Origin: Halococcoides cellulosivorans
GTDB taxonomy: Archaea; Halobacteriota; Halobacteria; Halobacteriales; Haloarculaceae
Direction of reading: 5' to 3'
Assembly: GCF_003058365.1 (NCBI RefSeq)
Contig: NZ_CP028858.1
Location: 434,001-498,000, forward strand
DNA length: 64,000 nt
A program made the position numbers and the translations under genes. Positions 49,455-55,449 of the stretch are shown one piece after another (within the stretch, counting starts at the first letter, position 1; each line of letters starts with the position of its first letter). The notes under the pieces were generated by a model, which worked only from the letters and a program-made list of their open reading frames with translations, ran no database searches and was not told where the DNA came from.

Positions 49455-50444
49455 GTGAAACGTGAACGATATCTCGCGGCCGGCGTGGCTGGCCTCTGCG
49501 TGCTGGCGCTGGTGGCGCTGTTGGTCGTCCCGGGGGCGATCGCTGAGGAGACCGAACCGTCGAGTTACCTCTCGATCACGGAGGTGGGCGTCGATCCGGT
49601 CGAGGCGTCGGGCAACGCCGCGACGTTCTCGTTTCCCGTCGCGGTGAGCCACGGCGGTGGCCCCGCCGAGAACGTGACCGCGCGGGTGCGGGCGATCGAC
49701 GACGCGAGCGGCCTGATCGCGGCCGAGACGACCATCGCGATCGACAACGTGACCGGTGATCGCGAACGCACGGCACGGCCGACGCTGACCGTCGAGCGAT
49801 CGGGTGATTACACCGTGACGGTCGTGCTCTACGAGAACGGCCAGCGGGTCGGCCGCGAGTCCACACAGTTGCGCAACGTCGAGGGGCTCTCACCCTCTCC
49901 GATCGCGTTCAAACGATTCGACTCCGGCGTCCAGACCATCGAGACGTCGATCGGATCGACCGGTGGCGACCGGACGTCGTTCGACGTGGGCGTGCGCCTC
50001 TGGAACACGGGCACTGAATCGGCGGGCGACGTCTCGGTCGAACTCGTCGCTCGACAGTCGGATTCGAACGTCGTCGCTGACCGGACGACCGTGACGGTCG
50101 ATACGATCGACTCCGGTGTGGCCGTTCGCCCGACCGGACGGCTGGAGGTCCCGTCCGGCTACGCCTATCGGATCGACGCGATCATCTCCCACGAGGGCGT
50201 CGTCGTGAGTTCAGCGACCTCCGTGGTGGATCTCGATCCCGAACGCGAACTGTCGAACGACACGACCTTCGAGGACGTCGAGTTCGAGGCCGAGGAGTTC
50301 GTCCGGGACGGCGGGACCGACGGCTCCGACGAGATGATCGAGGAGACGAGCACCGAGGAGGGCCCCGGATTCGGGGTCCTGGCGGCCCTGGCGGCACTCC
50401 TCGCGACAGCGGTTGCGATGCGACTTCGAGGTGATAATAGATGA
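49455..50444 (+). CDS. Secreted PGF-CTERM protein (DUF7490-like)
   Basis: A 329-residue cell-surface protein starting at GTG. A signal peptide (LAAGVAGLCVLALVALLVV, likely cut after GAIAE) is followed by two immunoglobulin-like beta domains of about 110 residues each (NAATFSFPVAVSHGGGPAEN and RTSFDVGVRLWNTGTESAG). A short acidic stalk ends in the PGF motif (EEGPGFGVL), a hydrophobic span and MRLRGDNR, the archaeosortase signal. The stop overlaps the next membrane gene by 4 nt. Its surface role is unknown. Confidence 0.78.
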   Translation: MKRERYLAAGVAGLCVLALVALLVVPGAIAEETEPSSYLSITEVGVDPVEASGNAATFSFPVAVSHGGGPAENVTARVRAIDDASGLIAAETTIAIDNVTGDRERTARPTLTVERSGDYTVTVVLYENGQRVGRESTQLRNVEGLSPSPIAFKRFDSGVQTIETSIGSTGGDRTSFDVGVRLWNTGTESAGDVSVELVARQSDSNVVADRTTVTVDTIDSGVAVRPTGRLEVPSGYAYRIDAIISHEGVVVSSATSVVDLDPERELSNDTTFEDVEFEAEEFVRDGGTDGSDEMIEETSTEEGPGFGVLAALAALLATAVAMRLRGDNR

Positions 50445-50821
50445 CAGATCACGACGCCGAGACCACGACCGACGCACCGTCCGCGAGCACTGCTGGGGCC
50501 GATTCGAGCGCCGCGAGCGCTGAGGCCGACACGACCGCCGCGAGCGCCACGACCGAACCGACCCCCGCGACCGCCGGGACGGATGCTGACGGGCTGTCGG
50601 GCGAGCGAGTCGTTCGTGCCATGGAGTACACCGCGCTCGCCGGCCTCTCCCTGCTCGCGGTGATCGCCGTCATCGGGGCGTACGTCAGTGCCAACGGCGC
50701 GATCAACGTCTGGGTCGGTGGCCGATTCCAACCGATCTTCCACACCGTCTTCAATCTGGTCGTGCTCGGAGTCGCCGGGATCGGCATCTCGCTGATCGTC
50801 CGCCGACGATTCGACGTGTAA
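50441..50821 (+). CDS. Two-span membrane protein with low-complexity N-terminus
   Basis: A 126-residue protein. The first 50 residues are Ala/Thr/Asp/Ser low-complexity sequence. Two membrane spans follow (YTALAGLSLLAVIAVIGAYV and IFHTVFNLVVLGVAGIGISL), joined by a loop with NVWVGGRFQP and ending in RRRFDV. It overlaps the preceding PGF-CTERM gene by 4 nt, so the two products are made together and may interact at the membrane. No family function is known. Confidence 0.65.
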   Translation: MTDHDAETTTDAPSASTAGADSSAASAEADTTAASATTEPTPATAGTDADGLSGERVVRAMEYTALAGLSLLAVIAVIGAYVSANGAINVWVGGRFQPIFHTVFNLVVLGVAGIGISLIVRRRFDV

Positions 50822-50915
50822 GCGCCCGCCGAACGCGTCCGGACCGGGTCCGATCGCGCCGTCGCGTCGTCGGCAGAAAACAACTGTTATGCGGGCCGCA
50901 ACTGACCACTCTCGT

Positions 50916-52493
50916 ATGACGGTCATCGTAACGGACGCACTCGATTCGTCCGGCCAAGACCGCCTGCGTGACGCAGGCCACTCGATCGAGGTCGTGCCGG
51001 CCGGGGATCGCGCGGCGCTGATCGACGCGCTGCCCGGCGCGTCGGGACTCGTCGTCGGTGCCGACCAGACGGTCGACGCCGACGTGATCGACGCGTCCGA
51101 CGCGCTCGCCGTGATCGGCGTGCTCGGCGTCGACGTGACGAACGTGGACGTCGAGGCCGCCACCGATCGGGGCGTGCTCGTCACGACCGCGCCACGAGCG
51201 TCGGTCCGGGCGGTCGCGGAGTTCGCCGTCGGGATGACGTTCGCGACGGCCCGAAAGATCCCCCAGGGCCACCGTCGTCTGCGGGGTGGCGAGTGGGCCA
51301 AAGGCCCGATCATCGGCCACGAACTCGACGGCAAGACGCTCGGCGTCCTCGGTCTCGACGAGGTCGGCCAGGAGATCGCGAGTCGCCTCGCCGGTCTCGA
51401 CATGGACGTGATCGCCTTCGATCCGGGCGCGGACGACGACCAGGCCCGCCGGATCGGCGCGACACTCGTCGACGACCTGGCGACGGTGCTGGAGACGGCG
51501 GACATCCTCTCCGTCCACGAGGGTCGCGGCGAGATTCCGGCACTCGACGCCGACGACTTCGACGCGCTCGCGGGTGGCTATCTCGTCGACGTGACCGGCG
51601 GGGCGGCGATCGACGAACCCGCACTCGCTGATGCCGTCGACGACGGCGTGCTCGAAGGCGCGGCGCTCGACGCCTTCGAGACGACACCGCTGCCCGCGGA
51701 CAGCCCGCTGCGTGAGGTCGAAAACGTCATCACGACGCCCGAACTCGCGACCGAGGCGCGCCCCGCGCCGACGGGCGCGGCCCGGCGTATCGCGGAGACG
51801 GTCGTCGACGCGCTCGCCGGCGAGCGCGTCCCGCAGGCGCTCAACACGCCATCGATCCCCGAAGACCGGTATCCGACCGTCGAACCGTACGCCGATCTGG
51901 CCGAGACGGCCGGCCGGATCGCCGTCCAGTTGCTCGCGGAGTCGGCCGACGGGATCACCATCTCCTTTGCGGGGCCCGTGGCCGACGAAGAGATCGACAT
52001 CGCCGCCGTGGCTGGCCTGACGGGCGCACTCGACGCGCTGGGGTACGACGCGACCGACGCCAACGCCCACGCGGTGGCCGCCGACGCGGGCGTCGACGTC
52101 TCTGTCGAGACCGCGAGCGAGGCCCAGGACTTCCGGAATCTCGTGACCGTCACCGCGACGGCGGACGACGAGTCCGCGAGCGTCAGCGGGACGCAGTTTG
52201 CCGACGGCGAGAGCCGGATCGTCAGAATCGCGGACTATCGCGTCGAGATCGTGCCCTACGGCACGATGATGCTCGTCCACAACGACGACGCGCCGGGCGT
52301 GATCGGCACGATCGGGACGATCCTCGGTGAGCACGAGGTCAACATCGCGGGCATGTTCAACAGCCGCGAGACCGTCGGCGGCGACTCGCTGACGGTGTAC
52401 AACCTCGACGAACGCCCCTCCGACGACCTGGTCAGTGAGATCCTCGCGGACGACCGCGTCGAGGACCTCGATCTGGTCTCGCTGGATCTCTGA
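50916..52493 (+). CDS. serA: SerA-like (phosphoglycerate dehydrogenase) protein lacking catalytic residues
   Basis: A 525-residue protein with full SerA architecture: split substrate domain, nucleotide domain (about 100-285), intervening regulatory domain and C-terminal ACT domain (MMLVHNDDAPGVIGTIGTIL). All three catalytic positions differ. The Arg of V-N-x-x-R-G-G is Gly228 (VDVTGGAAID). The Glu before Pro is Thr257 (FETTPLP). The His of TPHLGAST is Glu276 (TTPELATEA). The NAD loop GLGxxG reads GLDEVG (Asp148), and the substrate-binding Arg-Ser of the N-terminus is also gone. The ACT domain is intact. It may be a regulatory pseudoenzyme rather than the serine-pathway enzyme. Confidence 0.75.
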   Translation: MTVIVTDALDSSGQDRLRDAGHSIEVVPAGDRAALIDALPGASGLVVGADQTVDADVIDASDALAVIGVLGVDVTNVDVEAATDRGVLVTTAPRASVRAVAEFAVGMTFATARKIPQGHRRLRGGEWAKGPIIGHELDGKTLGVLGLDEVGQEIASRLAGLDMDVIAFDPGADDDQARRIGATLVDDLATVLETADILSVHEGRGEIPALDADDFDALAGGYLVDVTGGAAIDEPALADAVDDGVLEGAALDAFETTPLPADSPLREVENVITTPELATEARPAPTGAARRIAETVVDALAGERVPQALNTPSIPEDRYPTVEPYADLAETAGRIAVQLLAESADGITISFAGPVADEEIDIAAVAGLTGALDALGYDATDANAHAVAADAGVDVSVETASEAQDFRNLVTVTATADDESASVSGTQFADGESRIVRIADYRVEIVPYGTMMLVHNDDAPGVIGTIGTILGEHEVNIAGMFNSRETVGGDSLTVYNLDERPSDDLVSEILADDRVEDLDLVSLDL

Positions 52494-52997: not shown

Positions 52998-53507
52998 TTA
53001 TAAGTCTCCCGCCCTGGGCGAACGACCGAGCAGGGAGTGGGCCCGCCCGACTGCCGCGAGCACGACCGCCGCGCCGACCGCCGATCCGGGGTCGGCCCGC
53101 GAAGTGACGACCGTCGGGTCGCCGTCCCAGTCGCGATCCGGCCGGATCGCCCGGGCGTGGGCGATGCCCTCGCGGACGCGTCGTTCGACCGCCGCGGGGT
53201 CCGGACCCTCCTCCTCGTAGAACACGCCCGCTCCCGAGGCGGTGCGGTCCCATCCGACCGCCGCGCCTACGGGCCGATCGGCGTCGGGCGCGACCGTGGC
53301 CGACGCGCGGACGACGCACAATCCGCCGCCGATCGGGCCGAGATCCGGGAGGCGCTCACAGCGCTCGATGGTCGCGTCGGGCGGCACGACAGACGAGAGG
53401 TCGATCAGATTGTAGTCGTGGGCGTCGACCGCCGCGAGCGCGTCGTCGAACGCGGCGGTGTGGGTCGGACCGCGCCCCGTCGCGGCGACCACCCTGATCG
53501 ATGCCAT
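52998..53507 (-). CDS. pdaD: Pyruvoyl-dependent arginine decarboxylase
   Basis: A 169-residue proenzyme that self-cleaves at the Ser-Ser in NLIDLSSVVPPDA, creating a beta chain and a pyruvoyl-bearing alpha chain. GPIGGGLCVVRASATVAP and ASGAGVFYEEEG belong to the active-site region. It makes agmatine from arginine, needed in archaea for agmatidine in tRNA-Ile2 and for polyamines. Met at 53507 gives the family start RVVAATGRGPT. It is divergent from glmS, with 80 bp to the glmS leader ORF. Confidence 0.9.
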   Translation of the reverse strand: MASIRVVAATGRGPTHTAAFDDALAAVDAHDYNLIDLSSVVPPDATIERCERLPDLGPIGGGLCVVRASATVAPDADRPVGAAVGWDRTASGAGVFYEEEGPDPAAVERRVREGIAHARAIRPDRDWDGDPTVVTSRADPGSAVGAAVVLAAVGRAHSLLGRSPRAGDL

Positions 53508-53558
53508 ACAGAGGGTGGGCGATCGGGCCCGGAAGCCGTTTCGGTTCGCCCCGGCAGG

Positions 53559-53565
53559 CCTAAGC
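53559..53565 (+). promoter_or_regulatory. TATA-like element of glmS
   Basis: The sequence cctaagc is centred 26 nt before the leader-ORF ATG at 53588 and 82 nt before the glmS ATG. The same heptamer precedes carS at the same spacing from its ATG. Confidence 0.5.
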
Positions 53566-53587
53566 CGCGAGCGGCCCTGGCCGGCCC

Positions 53588-53644
53588 ATGCACGACTCGA
53601 TGGACGCGCGGGGGCCGTCGTCCACGCCGCCGGAGGGCCCGTGA
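53588..53644 (+). CDS. Leader ORF of glmS (18 codons)
   Basis: A possible leaderless ORF reading MHDSMDARGPSSTPPEGP, whose TGA stop overlaps the glmS ATG in the form TGATG. It begins where transcription is expected, 26 nt after the TATA-like element. The overlap would allow terminating ribosomes to start glmS directly, coupling the two. The peptide has no recognised homologue. It may act only in cis or may be a chance frame in the glmS leader. Confidence 0.42.
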   Translation: MHDSMDARGPSSTPPEGP

Positions 53645-55449
53645 TGTGCGGGATCGTCGCTGTCGTCGGCGCGGGCGATCGCACCCGCGAGATCGTCCTC
53701 GACGGCCTCGATCGCCTCGAATACCGGGGCTACGACTCGGCGGGCCTCGCGATCGGCGACGACACACTCCACGTCCGCCGTCGGGCGGGCCCGGTCGCCG
53801 ACCCCCGCGCGGTCGCGGACGCGGTCCCCGCCGCTGGCTCCGTGGGGATCGGCCACACCCGCTGGAGCACGCACGGCCCGCCGACCGAGGCGAACGCCCA
53901 CCCACAGGTGGACTGCACGGATCGGGTCGCGGTCGTCCACAACGGCGTGATCGAGAACGCCCCGACGCTCCGGCAAACGCTCGACGCCGCGGGCCATAGC
54001 ATCGAGGGCGAGACCGACACGGCGGTCGTCCCACACCTGATCGAGGACGCTCTGGCCGAGGGCCACGACCCCACGGCGGCGGTCCGGGCCGCGACGGACC
54101 GCCTCGACGGGCAGTTCGCGTTCGTCGTCGCGATCGCCGGGTTCGAGGGCGTCGTCGGCGTGCGCCGTGGGTCGCCGCTGGTCGTCGGGATCGACGCCCC
54201 GCTCACGCTCGCGAGTGACGTGCCCGCGATCAGGCCCTTTACCGATCGGGTCTGTCATCTCGCGGACGGCGACGTGGTGTGTGTCCGGCCCGACGGCTAC
54301 GCGATCACCGCGATCGACGGCACGCCGCGCGAGCGCCCGGTCGAGACCGTCGACTGGGAGTCGGGCGCGACCGGACTGGGCGCGTACGACTCGTATATGC
54401 GCAAGGAGATCGACGAGCAGCCACGCGTCCTCGGCCAGGCGCTCGCGGGTCGGATCGACGGCGACCGGGTCGACTCCGCGATCGACGGTGATCGCGTCAC
54501 GCTCGACTCCGCGATCGACGACCCGAGCGAGGTGCTGCTCGTCGCGGCGGGGTCGAGCCACCGCGCCGCGAGTGTCGCCGCCCGACGATTCCGCGCGGCG
54601 AGCGTGCCCGCCCAGGCGGCGATCGCCAGCGAGGTCGCGACCGATCCGCCGCCGATCGACGACGCCCTCGTCGTCGCGGTCACCCAGAGCGGCGAGACCG
54701 CCGACACGCTCGCGGCGCTCGCGGCGGTCACGGACCGCGCTGCGACGACCGTCGCGGTGACGAACGCCCCGCATGCGTCGATTTCCCGGGCCGTCGATTT
54801 CACCCTGCCCGTGCGAGCGGGCCCGGAGGTCAGCGTCGCGGCGACCAAAAGCGTCACCGCGTCGCTGGTCACGCTCGAACTGCTCGTCCAGGCGGTGACC
54901 GGTCCCGAGCAGAGCGTCCTCGACGCGCTCCGCGCGCTCCCCGACCAGGTCCAGCACGTCCTCGCGGAGAGTGCGGCCGCGAGCGTCGCGCGCTCGCTCA
55001 CCGACGGCGATTCGTACGTCTTCCTCGGGCGGGGCCTGCAGGTCCCGATCGCCAAAGAGGGCGCGCTCAAGACGACCGAACTCACGTACGCGCCCGCGCA
55101 GGGCTTTCCCGCCGGCGAGTTCAAACACGGCCCGCTCGCGCTCGTCAGCGAGTCGACGCCCGTGATCGCGCTCGTCACCGGCGACGGCGTTCACGCCGAA
55201 AAATGCGTGACGAACGTCCGTGAGATCGCGTCGCGTGGCGCACCGATCGTCGCGATCACCGACGGGCGCACCGACGCGGGCGACCCGAGCGTCGTTGATC
55301 ACACCCTCTCGATCCCGGCGGCCCCACAGCCCGCGGCGGCGATCCTCGCGACCGTCCAGACCCAACTGCTGGCCTATCACCTCGCACGCGAACTGGACCG
55401 CCCGATCGACCGCCCCCGGCATCTCGCGAAAAGCGTCACCGTCGAGTGA
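53644..55449 (+). CDS. glmS: Glutamine--fructose-6-phosphate aminotransferase (isomerizing)
   Basis: A 601-residue enzyme making glucosamine-6-phosphate, the entry to amino sugars for surface glycans. The glutaminase half starts MCGIVAVVG with nucleophile Cys2, and contains RLEYRGYDSAGLA and GHTRWSTHGPPTEANAHPQ. The isomerase half has two SIS domains (VAVTQSGETADTLAAL and FLGRGLQVPIAKEGALK) and the C-terminal HLAKSVTVE. An unusual repeated linker (DGDRVDSAIDGDRVTLDSAI) lies between the halves. The start must be 53644 because Cys2 has to be exposed after Met removal. Its last codons are duplicated downstream. Confidence 0.95.
   Translation: MCGIVAVVGAGDRTREIVLDGLDRLEYRGYDSAGLAIGDDTLHVRRRAGPVADPRAVADAVPAAGSVGIGHTRWSTHGPPTEANAHPQVDCTDRVAVVHNGVIENAPTLRQTLDAAGHSIEGETDTAVVPHLIEDALAEGHDPTAAVRAATDRLDGQFAFVVAIAGFEGVVGVRRGSPLVVGIDAPLTLASDVPAIRPFTDRVCHLADGDVVCVRPDGYAITAIDGTPRERPVETVDWESGATGLGAYDSYMRKEIDEQPRVLGQALAGRIDGDRVDSAIDGDRVTLDSAIDDPSEVLLVAAGSSHRAASVAARRFRAASVPAQAAIASEVATDPPPIDDALVVAVTQSGETADTLAALAAVTDRAATTVAVTNAPHASISRAVDFTLPVRAGPEVSVAATKSVTASLVTLELLVQAVTGPEQSVLDALRALPDQVQHVLAESAAASVARSLTDGDSYVFLGRGLQVPIAKEGALKTTELTYAPAQGFPAGEFKHGPLALVSESTPVIALVTGDGVHAEKCVTNVREIASRGAPIVAITDGRTDAGDPSVVDHTLSIPAAPQPAAAILATVQTQLLAYHLARELDRPIDRPRHLAKSVTVE

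Follow-up and report, generated by a model that had tools for sequence, protein, structure and literature searches.

A putatively dead SerA paralogue as the probable partner of a second copy in a proposed heteromeric phosphoglycerate dehydrogenase of Halorhabdus and Halococcoides

Results

The window analysed here is a 64,000-nucleotide stretch of the Halococcoides cellulosivorans genome (NZ_CP028858.1, positions 434,001 to 498,000). Its positions 50916-52493, on the forward strand, hold a single open frame of 525 codons plus a stop, designated copy A, which encodes a homologue of type-1 phosphoglycerate dehydrogenase (PGDH; SerA) that is predicted to be catalytically dead. The term ‘dead copy’ is used in this sense below. 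An in-frame ATG is also present at 50889; homologues of copy A start at 50916. An earlier reading made from the letters of this DNA without database searches (the sequence-only reading) had placed an intact, full-length SerA homologue at exactly this position, and both the frame and the coordinates proved right.

The best PDB sequence match of copy A is Mycobacterium tuberculosis SerA (3ddn; E 5e-69, full-length alignment). Three Pfam families score above their cut-offs, namely PF00389 (2-Hacid_dh), PF02826 (2-Hacid_dh_C) and PF19304 (PGDH_inter), while the NCBIfam model for type-1 PGDH (TIGR01327) gives 412 bits, under its 454-bit cut-off, so that the equivalog score is not reached. The substrate, NAD, ASB and ACT domains that define a type-1 PGDH all lie on one chain. 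The ASB or PGDH intervening domain spans residues 322-438 (51879-52229, forward strand; PF19304, 74 bits) and the ACT domain residues 446-525 (52251-52490, forward strand; PF01842, 25.9 bits with a cut-off of 27). A predicted monomer of copy A (pLDDT 81.4, pTM 0.61, with values <50 in the arm at 117-133 and at 276-286) also found M. tuberculosis SerA as its best PDB structure match (VIA Z 28.8, rmsd 13.4, 510 residues aligned); this predicted model confirms the type-1 fold only.

Just upstream of copy A is an open reading frame of 126 amino acids (50441-50821, forward strand) that matches no Pfam family at E 0.01. Just downstream is a homologue of pyruvoyl-dependent arginine decarboxylase (52998-53684, reverse strand), from which a GlmS-like gene with GATase and SIS domains (53638-55449, forward strand) diverges. 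Among the neighbours listed, none is common to the window's copy A and the copies of its relatives, and no conserved operon was found.

The catalytic residues of copy A were mapped by HMMER alignment to the M. tuberculosis, Pyrococcus horikoshii and human PGDH sequences, and by MAFFT alignments. The PGDH alignments place Gly228 (codon 51597-51599) at the catalytic Arg, Thr257 (51684-51686) at the catalytic Glu and Glu276 (51741-51743) at the catalytic His, all on the forward strand like the codons that follow. The Arg that binds the substrate phosphate (human Arg53, E. coli Arg60) is replaced by Gly48 (51057-51059), and the adjacent substrate Ser by Ala49. Asp73 (51132-51134) occupies the position of an invariant Gly in the GIGVDN loop, and Asp148 (51357-51359) that of the second Gly of the NAD loop, which reads Gly-Leu-Asp-Glu-Val-Gly in place of GxGxxG. 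The Asp148 site is presumably the same glycine that is changed in CtBP Gly172Glu (PDB 3ga0, the title of which refers to impaired NAD binding). The sequence-only reading had called these changes by eye, apart from Asp73, giving the substrate Arg and Ser simply as missing, and they are borne out here. The shift in alignment that would have overturned them was looked for, and none restoring Arg, Glu and His was seen with either HMMER or MAFFT. The same reading had left room for an active SerA, which is unsupported because none of the cis catalytic residues remains and several NAD contacts have been lost.

These losses are shared by a small group of orthologues. The Arg/Glu/His set is absent as a whole from all eight copies A, those of the window and of seven Halorhabdus genomes, with the Glu alone persisting in two; residues 228/257/276 read GTE in the window and DSE, DAA, DAE, DAG (twice) and DEG (twice) in the others. 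In a contrast greater than chance would give, the set is present in 136/136 other haloarchaeal SerA rows, comprising 117 main rows, eight copies B (see below) and six copies A and five copies B of Halapricum. These represent 135 distinct sequences, since main row L092 (Halapricum hydrolyticum) is identical to the Halapricum copy A row L051. The main set (117 rows, 116 further distinct) had its duplicates removed and excludes L096 and L134, which are Halorhabdus dead copies that had been included before; L041, which has the Arg/Glu/His set, is in the tree described below and outside the main rows. The substrate Arg at column 48 is found in 117/117 main rows and 8/8 copies B and is lost in 8/8 dead copies. 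Residue 73 is Asp in every dead copy and Gly in 117/117 main rows, and residue 148 is Asp in every dead copy and Gly elsewhere. In the ASB domain R391, E397 and K399 are lost from all eight dead copies. The serine-site residues of the ACT domain (N456, D458 and N476) are kept in all eight.

The sequence-only reading had suggested a search for a second SerA with a full triad, and one was found. The genome of the window (G000, one contig of 2,723,120 bases) contains a second full-length SerA, copy B, outside the window (G000:C1:753074-754627). It is 38% identical to copy A and has the Arg/Glu/His residues intact; the two genes lie 268 kb apart and share no operon. All eight genomes, the window's and those of the seven Halorhabdus, carry a dead copy A together with an Arg/Glu/His copy B, and this pair was found in no other genome among 146 of the family or 392 drawn from the order. 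A profile built from three altered copies separated the eight genomes (810-1032 bits) from the next best of the 146 (683), and an eight-row profile recovered the same eight at at least 856 bits among the 392, with the next best at 716. No third full-length SerA was detected in the eight pair-bearing genomes at E<=1e-80.

Halapricum has the same two paralogues, A and B, and both are intact. Each of the six Halapricum genomes examined has a second full-length SerA, which indicates that copy B predates the loss of catalysis. The copies B of five of these were drawn (69-70% identical to the window's copy B; that of the sixth genome, G040, was left out), and the copy-B loci used were L172-L184. A tree of 74 SerA rows, obtained by a quick search, joins the eight dead copies in one clade (SH-aLRT 99) that is sister to the six intact Halapricum copies A (99), and the 13 copy-B proteins form a separate clade (100). 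Copy B falls within haloarchaeal SerA in this tree, which, with the second copy in Halapricum, speaks against its recent import into the eight genomes. Moreover, the Halorhabdus copies A lie beside a thrC-like gene (recognized by eye from its sequence) that is also near copy A of one Halapricum genome (G022) and near the SerA of another genome (G019), and so copy A sits at the ancestral site. The tree and this position are most simply explained by two SerA genes in the common ancestor of three genera, namely Halapricum, Halorhabdus and the genus of the window, with copy A losing catalysis on the branch that leads to the latter two.

Duplicated and broken SerA genes were also encountered elsewhere. 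Genome G141, of another genus, provides a natural control, in that it has two SerA genes (L212 and L213) and the catalytic and trans residues checked are kept in both; duplication alone is not enough for decay. The sole full-length SerA of genome G010 (L215; G010:C12:252500-255500) is split into two overlapping frames that match reference residues 1-241 and 242-528; either the sequence contains an error or the gene is truly broken. A SerA of genome G059 (L214; G059:C1:2216000-2219500) is likewise in two frames, covering 1-117 and 110-528 of the reference.

According to a review, a PGDH subunit binds the substrate phosphate through an Arg from its own chain (human Arg53, E. coli Arg60) together with an Arg or Lys contributed by the adjacent subunit (human Arg134', E. 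coli Lys141') (PMC6300728). The latter residue and the Trp that accompanies it, whose roles are taken from the same review, are carried on a dimer arm that reaches the active site of the neighbouring subunit and corresponds to copy A residues 108-141 (51237-51338, forward strand). By HMMER alignment to human PGDH, the trans residue was placed at column 129 and the Trp at column 127. Copy A retains both. Trp127 (51294-51296; E. coli Trp139) is common to 8/8 dead copies, 8/8 copies B and 117/117 main rows. Lys129 (51300-51302) is present in 8/8 dead copies, 117/117 main rows, 6/6 Halapricum copies A and 5/5 Halapricum copies B, and in 127/127 distinct SerA outside the dead copies and their partners, whereas all eight copies B that partner a dead copy have Gly. 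Seven of these eight copies B are without any Lys or Arg in the stretch 118-141, and that of the window's genome has one Arg, at the end of the stretch.

A wider comparison was made over the 136 columns that are intact in the main rows and in both Halapricum copies. Eighteen of these are lost only in copy A, nine only in copy B, none in both and 109 in neither. The losses in A are largely from the cis site (R48, G73, N76, N96, G148, R149, D169, Y171, R228, G230 and H276 are among the 18), and those in B include the arm residues L122, A128 and K129. The lack of shared losses is weak evidence on its own, because only about 1.2 would be expected by chance.

Two further positions distinguish copy B. 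Residue 203 is Arg in copy B and in Halapricum copy B, and Pro in 117/117 main rows. In the HTP loop, the copies B of Halorhabdus, of the window's genome and of Halapricum (L172-L184) have Gln201 at the position of a His found in 117/117 main rows. Arg203 could partly replace the lost trans charge in cis, and this is the chief loophole in a heteromeric interpretation of the pair. The human R135W variant, which affects the equivalent site if the numbering is off by one, is described as impaired in activity with near-normal affinity for 3-PGA (PMC10624847).

The dimer arm was then compared with the rest of the protein. Among the eight dead copies, invariant positions make up 22/34 of the arm and 82/278 of the catalytic domains outside it (Fisher 8e-5); among the eight copies B the relation is reversed, with 14/34 vs 204/278 (Fisher 2.6e-4). 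Between the window's genome and a Halorhabdus genome (G001), copy A differs at 7/34 arm positions and 158/274 elsewhere, and copy B at 14/32 and 53/275 (Fisher 1.8e-4; 1.8e-4 to 0.029 over six pairs). The arm is slower than the rest in 6/6 A pairs and faster in the six matching B pairs, the arm/rest difference ratio being 0-0.60 in the former and 1.8-4.0 in the latter. For 6,548 background pairs, which are non-independent, the median ratio is 0.97, the 5% point 0.53 and the 1-99% range 0.36-1.67. The arm is not the sole slow stretch of copy A, as changes are equally few or fewer in windows at 231-266.

The ACT domain shows a related pattern. In three Halorhabdus pairs the ACT/catalytic difference ratio is 0.35-0.57 for copy A and 2.45-2.91 for copy B (background medians 0.98-1.57, from non-independent pairs), and for the window's copy A it is 0.79-0.87, indicating an ACT domain mildly slower than the rest. 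Counted over all eight rows, invariant ACT positions are equally frequent (33/75 in A and 34/75 in B). Of the columns conserved in at least 95% of main rows, the fraction changed in the dead copies is 0.36 in the substrate domain (66 columns), 0.39 in the NAD domain (93), 0.26 in the ASB domain (44) and 0.04 in the ACT domain (34). Full-length dN/dS between Halorhabdus copies A is 0.09-0.24, and copy A is under purifying selection within this genus. For the window's copy A against Halorhabdus it is 0.44-0.55, with dS near saturation. In the catalytic (N-terminal) domains, dN/dS is higher for A than for B in 5/5 matched Halorhabdus pairs. Together, the dN/dS values, column conservation and ACT ratios support the earlier proposal that selection keeps the fold and the serine-sensing domain of copy A. 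The accompanying description of the ACT domain as well kept holds for its ligand residues; it holds less well for the window's domain overall, where 47% of residues differ from the Halorhabdus (G001) copy.

Discussion

The residues kept and lost by the two copies suggest that they probably form an obligate heteromeric PGDH, in which B would be the catalytic subunit and the dead copy would lend Lys129 and serine sensing. Copy A keeps the part that reaches into its neighbour and copy B has lost exactly that part, so that neither is likely to work without the other. In such an enzyme, copy B, which has the NAD site, Arg48, Arg228, Glu257 and His276, would carry out the chemistry, and the dimer arm of copy A would supply Lys129, with Trp127, to the substrate phosphate in copy B, giving one active site per A:B dimer. 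Copy A would probably set serine feedback, because in Halorhabdus its ACT domain is more strongly conserved than that of copy B. We infer from residues and region-wise selection that A and B associate physically as a dimer, that this association is required and that serine controls the enzyme. On balance, we also favour an evolutionary route in which an obligate A:B heteromer arose as the two copies each gave up a different part of a common active site, one keeping only the cis half and the NAD site and the other only the trans lysine, the arm and the main domain for serine sensing, with the intermediates (a single copy, two intact copies and reciprocal loss) represented among living relatives.

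The pathway itself appears to be in place. In 14/14 genomes tested, among them that of the window, a serB gene scores above cut-off, which speaks against loss of the serine pathway. Halorhabdus utahensis AX-2 is described as growing without amino acids (PMC3035240) and this, together with serB, indicates that the pathway is needed there. An A:B enzyme is the economical reading, since the pathway is needed and A and B are the sole full-length SerA found.

The sequence-only reading had proposed a pseudoenzyme that regulates serine metabolism. The pseudoenzyme part is upheld; for a free-standing regulator, the difficulty is that the trans lysine retained by the pseudoenzyme is missing from copy B, a pattern that suggests a partnership in both structure and catalysis. 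The corresponding model, a homomeric serine sensor acting through the ACT domain with no shared site, beside a copy B that is an ordinary homodimeric PGDH with its trans Lys replaced by, for example, Arg203, is unlikely in our estimation. It would account for the ACT ligand residues kept in every dead copy and for Arg203 in both groups of copy B, and a dead homodimer might likewise have reason to retain Trp127 and the arm. Such a homodimer would, however, have no use for Lys129, and a copy B homodimer should retain its arm, yet in all six pairs the B arm drifts faster, and the A arm slower, than the rest. Moreover, Halapricum copy B has Arg203 yet retains Lys129 in 5/5.

Nor does the altered pocket of copy A look like a site under selection for another task. 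A new catalytic or ligand-binding role is suggested by Asp73, Asp148 and Arg266 in 8/8 dead copies and Asp228 in 7/8, but the rest of the pocket (positions 48, 96, 171, 208, 230 and 276) varies freely among the eight, and the higher dN/dS of the catalytic domains in A than in B also argues against such a role, which we regard as improbable. Least plausible of all is that copy A is a decaying relic on its way to a pseudogene, copy B having taken over. The end branch of the window's copy A is indeed long (1.55, vs 0.30 for its copy B) and its dN/dS against Halorhabdus is high. Against this, the frame is open in all eight genomes of two genera, the full-length dN/dS within Halorhabdus is low, and the arm and the conserved ACT columns have been selectively kept, also in the window's copy. 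In addition, a copy B that was the sole enzyme should need its own Lys129 more than before.

If the heteromer is real, the pair would be a clean natural case of a duplicated homodimer turned obligate heteromer, in which comparison with intact relatives shows, residue by residue, what either copy has lost. These losses would be reversible in the laboratory, and one Gly-to-Lys change in copy B might free it from copy A. It would also show that an enzyme of core amino-acid metabolism can be divided between a catalytic and a regulatory subunit, and that two genes annotated as SerA in a genome may together specify a single enzyme. The idea of conserved pseudoenzymes surviving as trans-acting halves would become open to direct test.

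Comparison with known systems shows where the pair would stand. M. tuberculosis SerA (PDB 3ddn/3dc2/1ygy) has the same order of four domains as copy A and is about 34% identical to it along the entire chain; copy A differs in being without the Arg/Glu/His residues, the GxGxxG motif and the substrate Arg, and has kept the trans Lys and the ACT-site residues of haloarchaea. The regulatory subunit of acetolactate synthase (IlvN/IlvH type), as generally outlined, is likewise an ACT-bearing regulatory subunit separate from the catalytic one in an amino-acid biosynthetic enzyme, whereas a PGDH regulatory subunit would be a full-length dead enzyme. To our knowledge, the IlvN/IlvH-type subunit is no degenerate copy of its catalytic subunit. 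No dead or heteromeric PGDH was found in the literature searched, mostly at the level of titles and the beginnings of abstracts. The closest likeness is to the trypanosomatid prozymes of deoxyhypusine synthase and AdoMetDC, reported as dead paralogues that arose by duplication of the partner, a catalytically impaired paralogue, and that activate it when the two assemble into a heteromer (PMC3663545). Those are other enzymes, in eukaryotes, for which the same report gives the complex and a 3000-fold activation, compared with a sequence signature alone here. Dead activating paralogues are already known elsewhere, and a PGDH of this kind appears to be new within the literature searched.
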